Assembly (NCBI GenBank): GCA_013335405.1
Contig: JAAXVR010000003.1
Coordinates: forward strand, 1-64,000
Length of the DNA stretch: 64,000 bases
Reading direction: 5' to 3'
Origin: Chlorobiaceae bacterium
GTDB lineage: Bacteria > Bacteroidota > Chlorobiia > Chlorobiales > Chlorobiaceae
The translations under genes and the position numbers were made by a program. The notes beneath the pieces are model-generated. The model saw nothing but the letters and a program-made list of their open reading frames with translations, searched no databases and was not told where the DNA came from. The number at the start of each line of letters is the position of its first letter. Within the stretch, counting starts at the first letter, position 1. Positions 33,588-64,000 of this stretch are shown here, one piece after another.

Positions 33588-34796
33588 TCAGCTGGCGGAG
33601 ATGAATCGGGAAAGGTAGGCCTTGATCGACTGGTGCTTGCCGAGACCGAGTTTTTTGTGCAGGCGGTAACGGATGCTTTCCATCCCTCTTTTTGTTATTT
33701 CGAGCGATCGGCTTATCTCGTCGGTGTCGTAATTCTGCCTTACGAGCAGACAGATTTTCAGTTCCCGCTGGGTGAGGCCGGGATGCCTGGTCTGCAGGGC
33801 ATTGAGAAAATCCGATTCCTGTTCCGACAGGTCGTTCTGCAGGTTTTTTTCCATAGCTTCTGTATCAAGCAGGCACTGGCAGAGGGCCTGCATTTTCTTT
33901 TTCTGCCGGGCGTCGATGTCGACGTTCCGGATATGTTCGAGAAGTTTGCGCAGTGCGGTCATTTTTTCATTGAAAGAACCGGACAATCTCGAAAGTTCGG
34001 TTTCATGCGAAGCGATAATGCCTTTCAGTTCCCGTATCTGCTTTTCGTGGTTCTGTGTGGTTTTCTTGTTCAGTTCCGCCTGTGCATTCATTTTGATGTT
34101 CATGTGGCCTATACGGTTTTCGAACTCTTTTTTCATTGCCTGAATTTCCTTCCTTTTATCCGTTTCCTTTGACAGAAGGTCGGAGCGGATTTCGTCCAGT
34201 GCCCTGAAATAAGGGTAATACTTGTTATCGAAAGCAGGGACAGGGACCGGTTCCTCAAGCATGTTCAGCCAGGTAAACTTCGCAACTGATTCCAGGAAAC
34301 GGTGTTTCATCTGGTCATCTTCGTTTCTGCTTTCAAGGACATGAAGGTCGTTGCGGCCGGAAAGCACTTTTTCCACGATCTCCTCGTAGGAGTCGGCGAT
34401 GATGAACTGCACATTCTGGGGCACAACGGCTGCCAGGGATTCGATAAGGATGCCTATCGGCCTGCTGACATTGAAGAGCCCAACCGTCCGGAGCGGCGGT
34501 TTCCAGTTGTAGAGGAGGTTTGCAATGGAGTGTTTGTAATTGCAGGTAACTTCACGGACACATGCCAGGTCCATGATAACATTGAAAGGCCTGAGATGGA
34601 GACCGGTTTCATTCAGTACCGTTTCCAGCAGGTCATTATCGACCGAATTGAGGATGACTTCCTGGTCGGTTTCAAACCAGTAATGGATAATATTGCCGTT
34701 AATGACGTTTATGCGTTTTATACAACCCTCTTCCGGGTGGTTTTTACGCCAGTGTTGCTTGTCGGTGATATGCAGCTTCCCGTTGTTGTTGATCAT
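33588..34796 (-). CDS. LuxR-type HTH protein with a novel N-terminal domain and coiled coil
   Basis: 402 aa, ATG at 34796. Three parts are visible. Residues about 29-147 form an alpha/beta domain (FNVIMDLACVREVTC, VQFIIADSYEEIVEKVLSG). Residues about 205-290 form a charged coiled coil (KEIQAMKKEFENRIGHMN). Residues about 339-400 form a GerE/LuxR-type DNA-binding domain (LTQRELKICLLVRQNYDTDEI, then KKLGLGKHQSIKAYL). There is no receiver or autoinducer domain I recognise. The N-terminal domain resembles that of the hybrid kinase at 37.5-39.6 kb. Function unknown; a transcription factor with its own sensing and dimerisation parts is inferred. Confidence 0.78.
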   Translation of the reverse strand: MINNNGKLHITDKQHWRKNHPEEGCIKRINVINGNIIHYWFETDQEVILNSVDNDLLETVLNETGLHLRPFNVIMDLACVREVTCNYKHSIANLLYNWKPPLRTVGLFNVSRPIGILIESLAAVVPQNVQFIIADSYEEIVEKVLSGRNDLHVLESRNEDDQMKHRFLESVAKFTWLNMLEEPVPVPAFDNKYYPYFRALDEIRSDLLSKETDKRKEIQAMKKEFENRIGHMNIKMNAQAELNKKTTQNHEKQIRELKGIIASHETELSRLSGSFNEKMTALRKLLEHIRNVDIDARQKKKMQALCQCLLDTEAMEKNLQNDLSEQESDFLNALQTRHPGLTQRELKICLLVRQNYDTDEISRSLEITKRGMESIRYRLHKKLGLGKHQSIKAYLSRFISAS

Positions 34797-35143
34797 CGGT
34801 TCTCTTTCCTGGTTTTCAATGGTTGTCGATTAGCTGCCGAAAACACTTCTCTGGGGAGTGCGCCACCCTGATGCGCGCTTGCGTGTATGGCGGGCATGGC
34901 TTTTCCCTTTCCGTGCCATACCTGGTGACGGATACCGTGTTTCTTCCGGGCAGGTGATACAGGTGTAATAACGTGATTTCTTTCGAAAAGAACAACGCTG
35001 ATATTACTTTTCAGTATCGTCAAAAATACGTATTATCTGTGATAATACGTCACCTGCCCGGATTCTGCAGGAAGTGTCACGGCGGTTTATCAGATGCAGG
35101 TATGGCGCGTGCTGCGGATGGGGTGCGCCGAGGATATTCGGGA
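34797..35143. other. Gene-free tract between the regulator and waaA
   Basis: About 350 bases between two minus-strand genes. It contains the nested inverted repeats and otherwise nothing I can identify. Short frames here show no family signature. Confidence 0.6.
34945..35062. promoter_or_regulatory. Nested inverted repeats upstream of the LuxR-type regulator
   Basis: Outer arms of 13 bp (TCCGGGCAGGTGA at 34945-34957 and its exact complement at 35050-35062) enclose a perfect 10-bp dyad, ACGTATTATC-TGT-GATAATACGT at 35028-35050. The inner dyad abuts the right outer arm. Placed 150-265 bp before the regulator start, it could be an operator, though a mobile-element remnant is possible. Confidence 0.5.
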
Positions 35144-36421
35144 TCAGCGGGGAAGAAGGTTCTCGATGCTGTTTACGATGATTGACGTTGCGCCTTTTCT
35201 TTCATCGACGAACCGTGCTGCTGCATTTCCGGCGCTATTTCTGCGGTGCGGATCCGTCGTGAAGGATTCAAGTTTTTCCGAAAGCTGATCCATGGATTCC
35301 ACGATGGTCCCGCCACCGCATTCGAAAAGAGCTTCGGCTTCCGGGGAGTTATGGATACGAGGTCCGAAAAGGACCGGGATGCCGTAGACCGCGGGTTCCA
35401 GCGTGTTGTGCACATTGACGCCGAAACCGCCGCCTACATAGGCGTAGGATGCAAGAGCGTAGAGTTCCGCCAGGTAGCCGGCCTGATCGATGACAAGCAC
35501 CGTTCGGGCGGGGTCGAAGGAGCTGTCGATTTCCGAAACCAGGGTGAACGGGATCGACAGGGAATCAAGAAAACGGCACAGGCGGCTGATGTTTTCAGGA
35601 TCTACCTTGTGCGGGACAATGATCAGATCGGGTTTTATTTCGAGCCTTTTCCAAGCCGGAAGCAGCAGCAGTTCGTCCTTGTCCCACAGGCTGCCTGCGA
35701 CCAGCACGGTGCGGTTGTCGAAAAAAGGTCTGAACCTTTCGATGCTACCGGTTTCCAGGCTTCTGCGGATGACCTGGTCGAAACGGGGATCTCCCGCGGT
35801 TTCAGCCTGTCGGCAGCCGAACAGCAGCCTGAATGCGGTGGTATCCTTTTCCGAGACGGTCCAGATGCGGTCGAAAAGAGAGAATACCTCCCGGTAAAAG
35901 TTTTTCAACAGAGGTTTGAGGTATGGTGAACCGCTCTGCAGAACTGCCGCTGCAAGCACCAGCTTCGCCCCGTGATTTTTTGCCTCGAGCAGATGGTTGG
36001 GCCAGAAATCATAACGCATCAGCAGGAGGATATCGGGGGAGAGCAGCGCAACCAGCCGCCTTGCATTCGACTTTGTATCCGCAGGAAGGTAGAATACCGC
36101 CGCTGCGTCGGGGAAATTTTTTCTGGCGTCGTAGCCCGATTCTGAAAAAAACGAAACGAAAACCCTCAAATCAGGGTCTTTTTCCTTCAAAGCCTTGATG
36201 ACGGGTCTCGCCTGCTCGAATTCACCGACCGAAGCGGCATGGATCCAGAGCCTCTTTCCGGAAGGGGAGAGAGAGGAAAGCTTCAGTTCGAGGTCACTGA
36301 TCAAACCGTCCCGGAAGGAAAAAAAATGACGCAGCTTCGGCACCAAAGGGGCAAAAAGCCTGGCGGTCCGGAGCATTACAGGGAAAAGCAGCGAATAGAA
36401 GAAAAGAAAGGGGCTCTGCAT
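35144..36421 (-). CDS. waaA: 3-deoxy-D-manno-octulosonic acid transferase (WaaA/KdtA)
   Basis: 425 aa, ATG at 36421. Adds Kdo to lipid A precursor at the inner membrane, an essential step of lipopolysaccharide synthesis. The N-terminal membrane anchor (FLFFYSLLFPVMLRTARLF) is followed by the GT30 glycosyltransferase with RLWIHAASVGEFEQARPVI, the characteristic Glu in VGEFEQ, RYDFWPNHLLEAKNHGAKLVLA, and the donor-site region YVGGGFGVNVHNTLEPAVYG. Divergent from the aldo/keto reductase gene. Confidence 0.94.
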   Translation of the reverse strand: MQSPFLFFYSLLFPVMLRTARLFAPLVPKLRHFFSFRDGLISDLELKLSSLSPSGKRLWIHAASVGEFEQARPVIKALKEKDPDLRVFVSFFSESGYDARKNFPDAAAVFYLPADTKSNARRLVALLSPDILLLMRYDFWPNHLLEAKNHGAKLVLAAAVLQSGSPYLKPLLKNFYREVFSLFDRIWTVSEKDTTAFRLLFGCRQAETAGDPRFDQVIRRSLETGSIERFRPFFDNRTVLVAGSLWDKDELLLLPAWKRLEIKPDLIIVPHKVDPENISRLCRFLDSLSIPFTLVSEIDSSFDPARTVLVIDQAGYLAELYALASYAYVGGGFGVNVHNTLEPAVYGIPVLFGPRIHNSPEAEALFECGGGTIVESMDQLSEKLESFTTDPHRRNSAGNAAARFVDERKGATSIIVNSIENLLPR

Positions 36422-36575
36422 GGCAATGGTATGGTTACAGGCGACTGCTCCAAGGTAACAAATATTTCTTTCTGTCGGATGGCTCCTCAGGTCGGGAACA
36501 AAAAGACCGCCGGACGGCTTGTTCCTTCATGAAGCGTTTCGATTTATGACCGTAACCGATAAAGGAACCTGGTCC

Positions 36576-37535
36576 ATGCAAAAAAAAGCGTTAGGTGATA
36601 CCGATATGCAGATTACGCCCATCGGTTTCGGGAGCTGGGCGATCGGCGGCGCGAACTGGGCTTATGCCTGGGGTCCTCAGGATGATGGTGAAGCGATCGA
36701 TGCAATTCTGAAAGCTCTCGATATCGGCATCAACTGGATTGATACCGCGGCGGTCTACGGCCTTGGTCATTCGGAAGAGCTTGTCGGAAATGCTGTTTCG
36801 GGTTTGAAAGAACGGCCTTACCTCTTCACGAAATGTTCCCTGGTCCAGGACGGTTCAGGGAAGCTCCGGAGCTGTCTCGATGCCGGATCGCTCAGGCGAG
36901 AATGCGAAGCGAGCCTGAAAAGGCTGGGGGTCGATTCGATCGATCTCTATCAGATCCACTGGCCTGATCCCGACAAGGATATCGAGCAGGGGTGGGAGGA
37001 ACTGGTTCGTCTCAGGGAGGAAGGGCTTGTACGCCATATCGGGGTATCGAATTTCAATGTCAGTCAGCTCCGCCGGGTGATGGCCATAGCGCCTCCGGCA
37101 TCGCTGCAGCCACCCTATTCGATGCTCAGGCCGGCTGTAGAGAGGGAAATACTTCCTTTCTGCCGGGAACACAACATCGGGGTGATTGTTTATTCTCCCA
37201 TGCTTTCCGGAATGCTCAGCGGATCGATGAGCCGTGAAAGGGCCGAGGCCTTGCCTCCGGACGACTGGCGCAGGAATAACAGGGAGTTCCAGGAACCCCG
37301 CCTCTCCGCCAATCTTGAGCTTGTGGAGCTTTTGAAGCAAATCGGCAGGAAACACGGGCGTTCGGCCGGGGAGGCAGCCATTGCCTGGACTCTGCGCCAT
37401 CCGGCTGTCACAGGTGCGATCGTCGGCGGACGCAATGCCCGCCAGGTTGAAGGAATTGCAGGAGCAGGGGATTTCAGTCTCGACGATGCGGATATCGATG
37501 CGATAGAACGGTTTATCGCAGGCATGCCGGTTTAA
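36576..37535 (+). CDS. Aldo/keto reductase
   Basis: 319 aa from the ATG at 36576, preceded by AAAGGA; an ATG at 36546 is an alternative. TIM-barrel NADPH-dependent oxidoreductase with the catalytic tetrad visible: Asp in NWIDTAAVYG, Tyr in the same motif, Lys in LFTKCSL, His in DLYQIHWPDPD. GVSNFNVSQL and the C-terminal AIAWTLRHPAVTGAIVGGRNARQV cofactor loop are present. Closest general type is the AKR11/YdhF-IolS group; substrate unknown. Confidence 0.93.
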   Translation: MQKKALGDTDMQITPIGFGSWAIGGANWAYAWGPQDDGEAIDAILKALDIGINWIDTAAVYGLGHSEELVGNAVSGLKERPYLFTKCSLVQDGSGKLRSCLDAGSLRRECEASLKRLGVDSIDLYQIHWPDPDKDIEQGWEELVRLREEGLVRHIGVSNFNVSQLRRVMAIAPPASLQPPYSMLRPAVEREILPFCREHNIGVIVYSPMLSGMLSGSMSRERAEALPPDDWRRNNREFQEPRLSANLELVELLKQIGRKHGRSAGEAAIAWTLRHPAVTGAIVGGRNARQVEGIAGAGDFSLDDADIDAIERFIAGMPV

Positions 37536-37538
37536 GCT

Positions 37539-39581
37539 TCATACAGGGATCTCGATATCCGGCAGCCATTTCTGCAGCACCTCCTTCAATGACTGGATCA
37601 GGAACGGTTTTGTAAGAAAATCGTTCATTCCGGCCTTGAGGCAGTTTTTCCTGTCTTCTTCGGTCGCATTGGCGGTCATGGCAATGATCGGGACATTCCT
37701 GCCGAGGATCCCGTTTCCGGTTTTCCGGATCTCCCTCGTTGCTTCGATTCCCCCCATGACGGGCATCTGCACATCCATGACAACAAGATCGTACACGCCC
37801 GTTTTCATGGCTTCGATCGCTTCCATTCCGTTGGATGCCACTTCGACCTTGCAGGGGAGCTTTCCGAACATTGCAAGCGCGACCTGCTGGTTGATAACAT
37901 TATCCTCAACAAGCAGAATGACCGCATCCTTCCTGATGGATTGTTTTCCTGCAGATGCCTTTTCCGGCGTCTGCCCGGGGGAGTCTGCCTTAAAACCGTT
38001 GCCGGCAATGGCAGGTTTTCCCGCTTTCAGCGGTTCGGTGAACGGAATCAGGAACCAGAAATCCGAGCCTTCGTTTTCCCGGCTTTCCAGATTGAGCTTT
38101 CCGCCCATGAACTCGATGAGCTGTTTCGAAATGGCGAGGCCGAGCCCGGCTCCGCCTTCCTTTCTCGTGGAAGAGGCATCGAGCTGGGTGAAACGCTGGC
38201 TGATCAGATCCTTTTTTTCTTCCGGGATACCGATACCGGTATCTTTTACGGAGAAGCGGAGGATGATCTCTCCGTCAGCCCTGGATTCAACGTTGACACT
38301 GATGGTGATGCTTCCCTTGTACGTGAACTTGACGGCATTCTGCACAAGGTTGATGAGCACCTGCCTCAGGTAGACCGGGTAACCTGACAGCATATCCGGG
38401 ATATCTTCGGCAATCCTTGTTTCGAGCAGAAGGTTTTTTTTCTGCGCGTTGCTGTAGAGGAGGGAGGCTATTTCCCTGCAGAGGGTTTTGACATTGAGAG
38501 GAGATTGTTCTTTTTCGATCTGGCCGGACTCAATCCTGCTGAGGTCCAGGATGTCGCTGATAAGCTGGTGAAGCTGCTTTGTGCTTATCTGGATTGTTTC
38601 CGAGTAATGTTTCTGTTCCCGGTTCAGGGTCGTGCCGAGCAGGAGTTCGGTCATGCCGATGATCGCGTGCAGAGGTGTGCGGATCTCGTGGGACATGTTG
38701 GCGACAAACTCGCTTTTGGCCTTGCTCGCTGTTTCCGCCTCAATTCTGGCTTTTTTGAGGGTTTCGATCAGTATCTGCTGGATCTGTTCTTTTTCCTCGA
38801 CATTTTTTTTCTCTTCGGAGAGTCTTTTGTTGAGATCGCGGGCGTTCGTCAGCGCCGCCTCGATTTTTTTCTTCTGTTCTTTCTCGTTTTTCTGATGTTC
38901 CCTCAGGTCGTTGTTGAGCAGGGAGATGATGGTATAGAGATCGTAGAGGGGATGCCCGGGTGAGACGAAGCTTTTTTTCTCGTCTACGGTGTAGAACTCA
39001 TCGAACAGTATGTGACCGCACATTGCGGCGAAGTTGTCGATCTCTTCCTGCGATATGGTGATGGGCCTGGCCTTGTCGGCAAAATCAAGTCCTCTGCCGG
39101 AGTTGATGAGGTTCAGCGCTTCGTCGATGGTGGAAACGTAGACGAACTTCTGCCTGACATAAGATGCGAAAAGCCGCAGCATGGTTTTCAGCAGAAGCGA
39201 GGCTCCGCAGATGTAGGTTACGAGAGGACGGCAATGGTAGTCGTCGTTCAGCCGGTTCAGTGTATTGGCGTAAAGCTTTCTTGTACTGATGCTCGCTTTC
39301 GTTACCGCGCTGTAATCGGCAATCCTGATGTAGTCGCAATTGCGCAGCACGCCGCTTTTAAAGACAAGCTCGAGGGCTTCGAGGGCTTTTTTCGCGCTAT
39401 CGAGTTCTATGTTTCCTCCGAGAAACGTCACGAACAGAGTACCGGGAATAACGCCGTTCCTGTAGAATACGCCTGTCAAGGGATCTTCATACTGCCATTC
39501 CGGCCTGAATTCGACCATTTCCAGGGTCACAGGCAGGCCTGGGATATTGATTCCGGGTTCGGGGTTCATGGCATTGTTCAT
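37539..39581 (-). CDS. Hybrid histidine kinase with receiver domain and unusual N-terminal domain
   Basis: 680 aa from the ATG at 39581; the frame opens nine codons earlier at TTG, and another ATG lies at 39569. The N-terminal domain (about residues 20-165; [33 protein letters not shown]) resembles the one in the LuxR-type protein at 33.6 kb. A coiled coil (about 230-290) leads to HisKA with the phosphorylated His in [16 protein letters not shown] (about 299), HATPase ([28 protein letters not shown]) and a receiver (VEDNVINQQ, phospho-Asp in [12 protein letters not shown] near 603, TANAT, TKPF). Cytosolic, with no membrane helix visible. Signal and output are unknown. Confidence 0.93.
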
Positions 39582-39899
39582 TTGCACGATAGCTGCTCTG
39601 TACGGCAAAGTCGAGGTCTCTTGTCCGGGACCGATCGTATAGCTGACGGTACCCGGGCCGATAACCGCCTGATTGCCTGATGCGACGCTCTACGGCTGAT
39701 ATTTCTCCAGGTCTGCAATGGGTGAAGCGATTCCTGCATGGATGGGCGGGGGCCGCTTCCGTTCTGTCCGGGACGCCCTGTACAGGGGGGACTTCCTGGA
39801 CTTGTTCCGGGTGAATTGCATATTCACCGTAATGTAATGTAAAAAATCCAAAAAAGACAGAAAGGCCCTGTTTGATTTCGGGATCCGATGCGGTAAGCT
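39582..39899. other. Gene-free tract between the hybrid kinase and nifA
   Basis: About 320 bases between two minus-strand genes. I see no terminator with a clear T-run, no obvious promoter pair and no open frame with a family signature. Confidence 0.5.
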
Positions 39900-41528
39900 T
39901 CAGAGGCGGAACTTGCGGTAGTCGATTTCGAACTTCTTGACGCGAAGCCCCATGATGCGGTCGGAAAGGCCGAGCTGGCTGGCCGCGCGGGACATGTTTC
40001 CTTTCGTGCGCTTGAGCGCTTCGATGATCATCTCCTTTTCGATGGCATCCAGCTTCTGCTGCAGCGAGCCGGTATAGGGAGTGCCGCTCGATTCGGCTGT
40101 CTGCAGTGTGGGCGGAAGGTGGTATCCGTGGATCACGTTGTCCTCGCTCAGAATTACCGCCCTTTCGATGCAGTTCTGCAGCTCCCTTACATTTCCGGGC
40201 CAGTGATAGCGCATGAGCATGTCTATCGAGGTGGTGGAAATCCGGCGAATGCCTTTGTGGTTCATGGTGTTGTATTTCTCGACGAAATAATCCGCAAGGA
40301 GCAGGATGTCGGTCTTGCGTTCACGAAGAGGAGGTACGGTTATCGGGAAGATGTTGAGCCTGTAATAGAGGTCTTCACGGAAAAGCCCCTGACGGGTGAG
40401 CTCTTCGATATTGCGGTTCGTGGCGGCGATTATCCTGACATCTGTCTTGATCGTCTTCGAACCGCCGACCCGTTCGAACTCCTTTTCCTGCAGTATCCTC
40501 AGGAGCTTGGCCTGAACAGGCAGGCTCAATTCTCCGACTTCGTCAAGAAAGATGGTGCCGGTATGGGCAAGCTCGAACCGTCCTCTGCGTGTCGCAGCAG
40601 CTCCGGTGAAAGCGCCTTTTTCATGCCCGAAAAGTTCGCTTTCCACGATGCTTTCGGGAAGGGCGGCACAGTTGAATTTGATGAATGGCTTGTCGGAACG
40701 GCGGCTTTTATAATGGATGGCGCTTGCAACGAGCTCCTTGCCGACACCGCTTTCCCCGAGCACCAGGGCCGTTGCACTGGTTTTTGCGATCTTTTCGATC
40801 ATCCTGTAGAGGGCGAGCATCGGTTTTGCATTTCCGATGATATTCTCCGGTCTCGACGTATCCGTTGCGTTTTCTTCATCATGCTCGTTTGAGATGATCT
40901 GCTGGACCGAGGGCTTCGAAATCCTGTTTTCACTGGTAACTATCGTGCTTTCTTCGAAGGCCAGCTGTTTGAGACGGACCGCCTGGGAGATCATGGATGC
41001 GATGATCGAAAGCTGATCGACATAGTGCTGCAGCAGGTCCATGCGGGCTTCATGGATTTTCGATTTTTTTATGTTTTCGAGCAGAGACGGATCGTTCAGC
41101 TGATGGTCTGCGCTGAGAGTGCCGATGATCTCCATTCCCGCCTTGATGGGAATGCAGATGAAACACAATCCGTCTTTTTTGGCCCTGGCCCTCGAACGGG
41201 TTCTGTCGAGAAAAAGCGGTTCCTCGTTGATGTTCGGGACAATTACGGTTTTGCCGTTTTTTACGACCTGTCCGGTAATGCCTTCTCCTATGCGGTAGCG
41301 CCCCCGCTCCATTTCTTCCTGTGACAGTCCGAATGATTCATTGATGACGATTTCCCCTGTCTGACGGTTGAGTATCGTGATCATGCCCCGCAGCATGTTC
41401 AGGTGCTCGGACATGATGAAGAGCACAAGCCTCAGAACCTTGCTGATGTCCTGCTCGTTCGAGATCGTCCGGCTGACTTCCGCAAGCAGGCTTATGGTGT
41501 CGTAGTCCTGTTCCCTCGTTAAAAGCAT
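39900..41528 (-). CDS. nifA: Sigma-54-dependent nif transcription activator NifA
   Basis: 542 aa, ATG at 41528. Order: GAF domain (about 20-165; GITGQVVKNGKTVIVPN), AAA+ sigma-54 activator domain with Walker A LGESGVGKELVASAIHY, the sigma-54 contact loop ELFGHEKGAFTGA, Walker B GTIFLDEVGELS, IIAATNRNIEEL, then a Fis-type HTH (GNMSRAASQLGLSDRIMGLRVKKF). The C-terminal helix matches the NifA recognition helix wording, and nifV follows 18 nt upstream on the same strand. It activates nitrogenase genes with RpoN. No nif structural genes are in the window. Confidence 0.9.
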   Translation of the reverse strand: MLLTREQDYDTISLLAEVSRTISNEQDISKVLRLVLFIMSEHLNMLRGMITILNRQTGEIVINESFGLSQEEMERGRYRIGEGITGQVVKNGKTVIVPNINEEPLFLDRTRSRARAKKDGLCFICIPIKAGMEIIGTLSADHQLNDPSLLENIKKSKIHEARMDLLQHYVDQLSIIASMISQAVRLKQLAFEESTIVTSENRISKPSVQQIISNEHDEENATDTSRPENIIGNAKPMLALYRMIEKIAKTSATALVLGESGVGKELVASAIHYKSRRSDKPFIKFNCAALPESIVESELFGHEKGAFTGAAATRRGRFELAHTGTIFLDEVGELSLPVQAKLLRILQEKEFERVGGSKTIKTDVRIIAATNRNIEELTRQGLFREDLYYRLNIFPITVPPLRERKTDILLLADYFVEKYNTMNHKGIRRISTTSIDMLMRYHWPGNVRELQNCIERAVILSEDNVIHGYHLPPTLQTAESSGTPYTGSLQQKLDAIEKEMIIEALKRTKGNMSRAASQLGLSDRIMGLRVKKFEIDYRKFRL

Positions 41529-41546: not shown

Positions 41547-42698
41547 TCAGTGTTTCTGCAAATGTTTCCTGTAGATGATTTCAAGCTCGTCCGGACTGAG
41601 TGTGCGCTTTTTTTCACCGGCACTCTTTCTTACCGTTTCAAGGAGGCTGCCTGCTTCATTTCTCGAAATCGAGATGCCCCTCGAAGAAAAAAAATGCTGC
41701 AGGGAAGCACTTCCGGAGTGTTTTCCGATGACGAGCTCATGACTCTGGCGGCCGACTTCGGCAGGCAGGAAAGGCTGGTATGCCAGAGGGTTTTTCAGCA
41801 ATGCCGCGCAGTGTATGCCCGATTCATGCAGGAATGCGGATTTACCGATAACGGGCTTCTGGTCGACAATGATCCTTCCGGCAGCTTTGCTGACTGTCGA
41901 GCACAAGCGGGAAAGCTTTCGGGTATCGATAGACGAGTCATATCCTCCGGATAGCTTCAGGGCCATTGCCAGCTCTTCGAGCGCCGCGTTGCCCGCCCTC
42001 TCGCCGAGTCCGGTTACCGAAACGCTGACAGCCCTGCAGCCGGCTTCGAGCGCGGTGAAGGCATTTGCGGAAGCCATCCCGATATCGTTGTGGGCATGGA
42101 ACTCGATAGGGGTTTTGAGGACTGATAGCAAGTGCTTTACGGACGAAATGACGGACGTTGGGGTGGCGATTCCGACGGTGTCGGCGATCCTCACCCTCTG
42201 TGCGCCGCAGGCTTCGGCATCGAGAAAGAAGCTTTTCAGCGCGTCCGGTTCCGCTCGAGTGGCGTCCTGGGCACCGATGCTGACGAAGGAAAAACATTTT
42301 TTTGCTTCGGTTACAAGAAGCGCGAGTTGCCGGTGCAGCCAGCTCCTGTCCTTCTGCATGAGCTGCAGGTAGAGATCCGAAACAGGGAAGCTGATATGCA
42401 GAGCTTCAGTGCCGCACGAGGCCGCATCCCTGATGTCTTCGATCCTTGACCGGGCCCAGCATGTAAGTCGGGCGTGAAGGTTCATCGAAGCTATCCGCCG
42501 TATCGATATCCGTTCTTCTTCACCGATTGCGGGGTAGCCGATTTCGATTTCATTGACGCCCGCATCGGCGAGCAGAAAGGCGATTTCAGTTTTTTCTTCA
42601 CGGCTGAAAGCGACGCCGGGGGCCTGTTCTCCGTCGCGGAGTGTCGTATCGATGATCCACGGGGTCCGGTGAGTGTTTTTCATCATCTTTTCGGGCAT
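41547..42698 (-). CDS. nifV: Homocitrate synthase NifV
   Basis: 383 aa, ATG at 42698. Condenses acetyl-CoA and 2-oxoglutarate to homocitrate, the organic ligand of FeMo-co. DRE-TIM fold motifs: IIDTTLRDGEQAPGVAFS, the metal-binding HAHNDIGMASANAFTALEAG, SVTGLGERAGNAALEE. The SGIHCAALLKNPLAYQPF stretch is NifV-like rather than LeuA-like. It is 18 nt before nifA and so cotranscribed. I found no -24/-12 sigma-54 promoter upstream by eye. Confidence 0.92.
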   Translation of the reverse strand: MPEKMMKNTHRTPWIIDTTLRDGEQAPGVAFSREEKTEIAFLLADAGVNEIEIGYPAIGEEERISIRRIASMNLHARLTCWARSRIEDIRDAASCGTEALHISFPVSDLYLQLMQKDRSWLHRQLALLVTEAKKCFSFVSIGAQDATRAEPDALKSFFLDAEACGAQRVRIADTVGIATPTSVISSVKHLLSVLKTPIEFHAHNDIGMASANAFTALEAGCRAVSVSVTGLGERAGNAALEELAMALKLSGGYDSSIDTRKLSRLCSTVSKAAGRIIVDQKPVIGKSAFLHESGIHCAALLKNPLAYQPFLPAEVGRQSHELVIGKHSGSASLQHFFSSRGISISRNEAGSLLETVRKSAGEKKRTLSPDELEIIYRKHLQKH

Positions 42699-63148: not shown

Positions 63149-64000
63149 TTATTTATCGTTCAGAGACCTTATCATATCGAGCAGCTCGCTTTTTCTGACG
63201 GGTTTTGCCAGGAACCCGTCGCATCCCGCATAAAATGCTTTTTCCCTGTCTTCGGGTGATGCGAAAGCAGTCTGGGCGATGACCAGCAGATCAGGTCGCA
63301 TCTGCTTGATAAGCCGTGTTGCTTCAAAACCGTTCATATCGGGCATTTTGATGTCCATCAGCACAAGGTTGGTTCCGGGGTGCTGCCTTACCAGTTCCAC
63401 AGCTTCCCTGCCGTTCGAAGCGATCATGATGTTGATGTTTTCATGTTTCAGTGATTTTTTCAGCAGGAGAGCGCTTACTTCGTCGTCTTCGGCGATGACG
63501 ATGGTCATCACAGGCTTTTCCGGGGATTCTGAGGCTACCGGGTGAACGGGGTCCGTATGCCGTTCGGGAGTACAGGGGAGCGTGAAATAGAACCTGCTGC
63601 CTCCTGATATGCCGGGCTCGACATGGATGATACCGCCAAGCATTTCGATATATGATTTCGTTATGCTCAGCCCGAGTCCTGCACCATCATGCATGCGGGA
63701 GAGGGTGTTGTCGACCTGGTTGAAGCGTTCGAAGATTTTTTCCTTCATTCCGGACGGAATTCCTACGCCGGTATCGACGACATAAAACTCCAGCAGGTTC
63801 TCCTTTTTTTCACATCCGAAATCGATATCCCCTTCCGGAGTGAACTTCATGGCATTCTCCAGCAGATTCGACATGATCAGTTCAAGTTTCGCCCCGTCGG
63901 TTATTATGAGGCTTTCTTCATCTGAAAGTCCGGATTTCCAGGTCAGCTGCAATCCTTTTTTTTCGGCATCGGCGGAGAATTTCTCATAGAGATAGCCAAG
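63149..64000 (-). CDS. Hybrid histidine kinase, C-terminal part cut by the right edge
   Basis: 284 codons are open to the window edge on the minus strand. The first visible residues (LGYLYEKFSADAEKKGLQLTW) belong to the kinase linker; HisKA is off-window. HATPase boxes are SNLLENAMKFTPEG, VDTGVGIPSGMKEKIFERF and HDGAGLGLSITKS. The receiver shows VIAEDDEVSALLL, the phospho-Asp in NLVLMDIKMPDMNGFEATRLI, AQTAFA and LAKPVRKSELL. The TATA-box-free gap to fur is 76 nt on the same strand and may be cotranscribed. Signal unknown because the N-terminus is missing. Confidence 0.92.
   Translation of the reverse strand, partial: LGYLYEKFSADAEKKGLQLTWKSGLSDEESLIITDGAKLELIMSNLLENAMKFTPEGDIDFGCEKKENLLEFYVVDTGVGIPSGMKEKIFERFNQVDNTLSRMHDGAGLGLSITKSYIEMLGGIIHVEPGISGGSRFYFTLPCTPERHTDPVHPVASESPEKPVMTIVIAEDDEVSALLLKKSLKHENINIMIASNGREAVELVRQHPGTNLVLMDIKMPDMNGFEATRLIKQMRPDLLVIAQTAFASPEDREKAFYAGCDGFLAKPVRKSELLDMIRSLNDK

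Follow-up and report, generated by a model that had tools for sequence, protein, structure and literature searches.

A LuxR-type regulator and a nifA-adjacent hybrid histidine kinase of Chlorobiaceae probably share a STAS-type N-terminal module

The window analysed here is a 64,000-nucleotide stretch of contig C62 from a 2.47 Mb Chlorobiaceae genome (G000), and two genes of interest, together with the nifA and nifV homologues beside one of them, lie on its minus strand. The first of the two (33588..34796) is intact and encodes a putative LuxR-type (GerE) regulator of 402 aa with a STAS-fold module at its N-terminus. The predicted STAS-fold domain, delimited by AlphaFold2 and VIA-align, spans residues 17–152 (34341..34748), with W16 just ahead of it, and leads into a helix and linker of the pattern P..YPYF.ALD.mR.DL (residues 155–213, 34158..34334) that profile comparison places in common with the kinase described below. 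A predicted long helix or coiled coil (residues 214–335, 33792..34157; the model reaches residue 232) connects this region to a GerE helix-turn-helix (residues 341–387, 33636..33776, PF00196), and in the AlphaFold2 model of residues 8–232 the coil helix is unbroken up to the last residue. PF00196 scored 24.7 bits in one search and 20.9 in another, against a cut-off of 23.5. The coil and helix-turn-helix (about residues 235–398) resemble the C-termini of much larger Bacteroidota regulators, with roughly 23–36% identity and matches in 48 of the 117 non-Chlorobiaceae genomes, but the N-termini of those proteins showed no match, and the regulator has the STAS module instead. Its neighbours are housekeeping genes, which give no hint of what it does.

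Several variants of the regulator were seen along the way. Paralogues of ~170 aa with the coil and helix-turn-helix but without the STAS module occur in the same genome (G000:C21:66660-67157 and G000:C56:5673-6176, L002), and such short forms are present in several Chlorobiaceae genomes; they might mix with the long regulators via the coil. Regulator genes also occur as tandem pairs in several Chlorobiaceae loci (L123, L135, L141, L144, L149 and others), where the STAS sequence of the upstream copy is altered and marks it as a subtype of its own. One paralogue is interrupted in G052 (C8:59032-59735).

The second gene (37539..39608), also intact, encodes a STAS-fold hybrid histidine kinase of 689 aa when read from a TTG; an ATG at 39581, chosen in an earlier sequence-only reading of this DNA, is an equally possible start. 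The predicted STAS-fold domain (residues 38–174, 39087..39497; AlphaFold2 and VIA-align) starts at the invariant W38 and is followed by a helix and a 17-residue linker (residues 180–238, 38895..39071) that profile comparison finds in common with the regulator. The remainder of the protein consists of a HisKA domain (residues 297–362, 38523..38720; PF00512, 2.8e-23) with the phospho-acceptor H307, a HATPase_c domain (residues 411–524, 38037..38378; PF02518, 1.4e-28) and a receiver (residues 564–678, 37575..37919; PF00072, 2.3e-27) with the phospho-acceptor D612. These three domains and their catalytic residues, identified by Pfam and by alignment, define a hybrid histidine kinase, and the two outputs foreseen by the sequence-only reading, a coiled coil with a DNA-binding domain in one protein and a kinase with a receiver in the other, are those found. 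In an alignment of 20 related sequences (one, L133, ends ahead of the kinase part), the H, N, G1 and G2 motifs and the receiver D, T and K are conserved among the full-length kinases, while the H-box Arg is replaced by Ile (SHEIITPL) in nine of them, including L126, L130 and L134, and the residues flanking the N-box Asn differ in a few. With both phospho-acceptors and the N, G1, G2, T and K motifs in place, the protein is probably an active phosphorelay kinase, as judged from its sequence. Its best NCBIfam matches are TorS and BarA, both below their equivalog cut-offs; it shares the HisKA–HATPase–receiver layout of hybrid kinases of the TorS, BarA and ArcB type but differs from them in having a STAS-fold input and no HPt domain. 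Pfam revealed no PAS or HAMP input in the kinase, and since neither a PAS domain nor a membrane input came to light, the STAS module is likely to serve as its input. In G063 (C52:7534-8258) a stop or a change of frame disrupts the STAS region of a related kinase gene, and an apparent partial hybrid kinase (ATPase and receiver, by translation alone) lies near the edge of the window at 63149-63952.

BLASTP gave no match between the two N-termini, and they were compared as profiles. Relatives were collected from 148 genomes and then from named genomes, in which the scan returned 48 loci, all from Chlorobiaceae, Chlorobium, Chlorobaculum, Chlorobiales or Chlorobiota. The resulting alignments held 41 regulator and 20 kinase N-termini, one kinase locus (L140) being omitted with its domain cut off. 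Shallow first profiles reached a P of only 0.0069, yet already in the register that the sequence-only reading had proposed. With the deeper profiles extended to the coiled coil, hhalign returned a mutual match with a probability of 87% and a P of 3.7e-6 over 207 collinear columns, confirming that register: IMDLACVREVT of the regulator stands opposite an 11-residue segment of the kinase and VQFIIADSYEEIVEKVLSG opposite an 18-residue segment, as had been claimed. The match also runs past the limits set in that reading, pairing the regulator linker YYPYFRALDEIRSDL with the 17-residue linker of the kinase. In a merged alignment of 23 rows, W16 of the regulator pairs with W38 of the kinase and both are invariant, as is the D of the linker DL.

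The predicted structures give the two domains one fold. The AlphaFold2 model of regulator residues 8–232 has a pLDDT of 90.9 and a pTM of 0.80, and that of kinase residues 14–262, which is of moderate confidence only, has a pLDDT of 79.8 and a pTM of 0.65. The order of elements matches in both models, with strands followed by helix, strand, helix, strand, helix, strand, two further helices and the coil helix. A STAS domain ranked first among PDB entries in Foldseek for each model (4xs5 for the regulator, E 0.0021; 4hyl for the kinase, E 2.1e-4), and VIA-align gave Z-scores of 10.9 to 2q3l_B (113 residues, 2.9 Å) and 10.5 to SpoIIAA 1tid_D for the regulator, and of 11.9 to 1tid_D for the kinase (118 residues, 3.0 Å); these exceed the Z of 7–8 that is common by the tool's own account. 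Both models cover the same chain range of 1tid_D, residue −1 to 116, so that structure and profiles point to one register. In their predicted structures both N-termini therefore have the STAS topology, in line with the STAS-like strand and helix noted from the letters alone.

Their relationship to recognised STAS families is less direct. The two domains share the fold of SpoIIAA, RsbS/RsbR, the SLC26 STAS domains and DUF3478, to which the best superpositions are those given above, but identity is about 10%, and neither PF01740 nor PF11964 matches above cut-off. No Pfam or NCBIfam model exceeds its cut-off on either N-terminal domain, and at E 10 PF01740 appeared for neither of the two proteins; the genome itself has five PF01740 matches, none of them on contig C62. 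The domain had been described as uncharacterised, which holds for the family models but not for the fold. CRAL_TRIO_2 and SpoIIAA-like were considered as identities for the domain and set aside, as the former matched 5 of 10 members and the latter 1 of 42, always below cut-off; they indicate the same fold class, which is no proof. A profile search of PDB sequences found nothing for the kinase domain, and the six matches of the regulator domain look like chance (the best at E 0.094); comparisons of both domains with sets of canonical STAS and SpoIIAA-like relatives (P 0.02–0.75) were uninformative either way. The column that we presume to hold the phospho-serine of SpoIIAA, placed by eye in both alignments, is variable in the 41 regulators and 20 kinases. 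Near this column, at the start of helix 2, lies an invariant basic residue, K88 in the regulator (41 of 41) and R110 in the kinase (20 of 20), which could bind an anionic ligand.

The profile signal is unevenly spread over the N-terminal region, with the bulk of it in the 32-column linker behind the STAS domain. This linker alone gives a P of 1.2e-5, whereas the best of 133 decoy windows reached 0.0012 and the best of 200 shuffles 0.0033. A region ending with the STAS domain gave a P of 0.0044; adding the linker and removing most of the coil raised the match to a score of 37.7 (P 6.2e-5), compared with 30.3 (P 0.00095) for the best of 100 column shuffles and a P of about 0.04–0.05 for reversed profiles. 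The STAS cores alone yield a P of 0.14, within the range of decoys, among which unrelated families reach 0.003–0.005; the case for homology therefore rests on the fold, the register and the linker. Such cores would be expected if two unrelated STAS domains had been recruited separately and the linkers had converged because each feeds a coiled coil, and STAS domains are common enough for this, canonical ones being present in 25 of 26 genomes searched. Against separate recruitment, however, the linker match beats every decoy window and shuffle while the coil regions give no match of that level (P 0.03 or worse), and a single register runs through all 207 columns with an aligned invariant Trp ahead of the domain. 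We consider separate recruitment unlikely and a shared STAS-type module at the two N-termini likely.

Within the phylum genomes sampled, this module appears to be a Chlorobiaceae feature. Among 296 genomes of the phylum, the kinase domain was found in 27, all Chlorobiaceae, with one further weak match, and the regulator domain in 58 Chlorobiaceae, with four further weak matches. A merged profile run against 345 phylum genomes returned 71 Chlorobiaceae and 17 weak matches outside the family (E 0.008–0.48), the latter taken as chance. Neither domain was detected outside Chlorobiaceae in the phylum genome sample, and no relative of either was found in plasmids or in IMG/VR viral contigs. Similar N-terminal domains may also exist in kinases of Desulfobacterota.

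The sequence-only reading had gone on to call the two proteins a new signalling pair, and the window does place their genes about 2.7 kb from each other, in a contig order that recurs in G302 and G237. A true two-protein circuit, in which the kinase and the regulator either exchange signals or respond as a pair to one stimulus, would account for this proximity. Across 86 Chlorobiaceae genomes, however, the regulator is present in 78, the kinase in 31 and both in 28, against 28.1 expected, and because co-occurrence equals expectation the two genes occur independently; within this set the profile of neither family finds the other. Three genomes (G137, G173 and G193) carry the kinase without the regulator, a distance of about 4 kb or less between the genes is confined to G000, G302 and G237, with about 117 kb separating them in G010, and the regulator has no receiver domain. 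A circuit of this kind is improbable, and the claim of a pair is not supported, with the kinase gene tied to nifA instead.

Directly upstream of the kinase gene lies a nifA homologue (39900..41528; TIGR01817, 514.4 bits, cut-off 528.85), preceded by a nifV homologue for homocitrate synthase (41547..42698; TIGR02660, 459.2 bits, cut-off 462.9); both score slightly below the curated NCBIfam cut-offs. While nifA is present in 79 of the 86 Chlorobiaceae genomes, the kinase is confined to 31, and in all 29 of these that could be tested it follows nifA directly, both on one contig and one strand, the kinase-domain match starting 183–425 bp after the nifA match ends. In the other two (G295 and G309) the kinase match starts at contig base 1 or 3 and the linkage is untestable. 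One genome (G177) has a second STAS–kinase copy away from nifA (C7:15254-15994), and in G145 the kinase gene is divided between two contigs. The order nifV–nifA–kinase was recovered by an automatic gene picker in 17 of 20 named kinase loci; of the remaining three, L133 stops within the kinase, L140 starts within it, and in L154 the nifA slot was assigned to the opposite strand. Eight kinase loci run on into genes of nifH–nifI–nifI–nifD clusters, in which NifH scores above its cut-off and the truncated NifD below, with the nifI genes assigned by size and position.

Twenty nifA loci without the kinase were taken, of which 19 were readable and one lay on too short a contig; by BLASTP none of the 19 carried a replacement or remnant of the kinase, and nifA was followed by other genes. 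On a quickly built NifA tree of 39 rows the kinase label needs at least five changes, against 13.3 by shuffling, and kinase-bearing rows occur in both genera and on either side of the deepest split, which is how an old gene that was lost several times would be distributed. The best explanation is that the kinase gene belongs to a nifV–nifA–kinase set of green sulfur bacteria. Because the gene lies directly behind nifA, this arrangement suggests that the kinase helps to control nitrogen fixation, and on sequence grounds a nif role is probable. The kinase could instead act on something other than the nif genes and merely sit within a conserved stretch of chromosome, as it is dispensable (many genomes keep nifA and nifV but lack it), its receiver has no output of its own, and further flanking genes, including those for adenosine deaminase and HGPRTase, have no connection with nitrogen fixation. 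A non-nif target is a minority possibility in our judgement, however, given that position and strand behind nifA are constant in every testable genome and in both genera despite differing outer genes.

Adjacency to nifA invites comparison with NifL. NifL is likewise a histidine-kinase-like protein encoded beside nifA, but it senses by PAS domains, whereas the kinase described here has a STAS fold, an intact H-box and a receiver. NifL is not known to have kinase activity. In none of the 86 Chlorobiaceae genomes did any of the best 15 candidates per genome reach the cut-off of the NifL model TIGR02938, a search in which no positive control matched. The part of the NifL literature consulted describes H and GHKL effector domains and contact with NifA (PMC3466315). 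The protein is best read as a phosphorelay kinase gated by its STAS module and serving nif control, somewhat NifL-like but not NifL.

On the computed fold, collinearity, linker match, nifA linkage and intact catalytic residues we build the following scheme, in which we infer the ligand, the direction of control and the phosphate route. Both proteins would run from a Trp-bearing strand through the STAS-fold domain, the helix and the conserved linker into a coiled coil, which in the regulator leads to the GerE DNA-binding domain and in the kinase to the HisKA–HATPase–receiver part. The module probably responds to a cytosolic ligand or a partner protein, and the signal probably travels down the coil as a change in helix register or dimer state. 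The kinase is likely to autophosphorylate on H307 and hand the phosphate to D612, thereby tuning nif expression together with NifA, either by way of an HPt protein encoded elsewhere or by contacting NifA as NifL does. The regulator would be a separate and commoner user of the module, not a partner of the kinase. This combination of a shared STAS module, a kinase in nif control and a separate regulator is the best overall explanation, and we regard it as reasonably likely. A bolder version, in which the kinase is an active NifL analogue that is co-transcribed with nifA and sets the activity of NifA, and the same module and metabolic signal also drive the family-wide LuxR-type regulator, so that two proteins answer to one ligand, seems to us doubtful; if it were true, nitrogen fixation and a wider regulon would obey one ligand through two separate proteins.

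In a literature search that left subscription journals mostly outside, we found no paper describing the nifV–nifA–kinase set, and none on NifA control in green sulfur bacteria. In the portions available, one study places PII genes beside Chlorobi nifHDK and mentions no kinase there (PMC7341956), and another lists nifA and nifV among Prosthecochloris genes (PMC5473276). With its constant place behind nifA, the kinase gene offers a concrete candidate for NifA control in green sulfur bacteria, and the module that it probably shares with the LuxR-type regulator would give two unassigned Chlorobiaceae regulators a named input domain.
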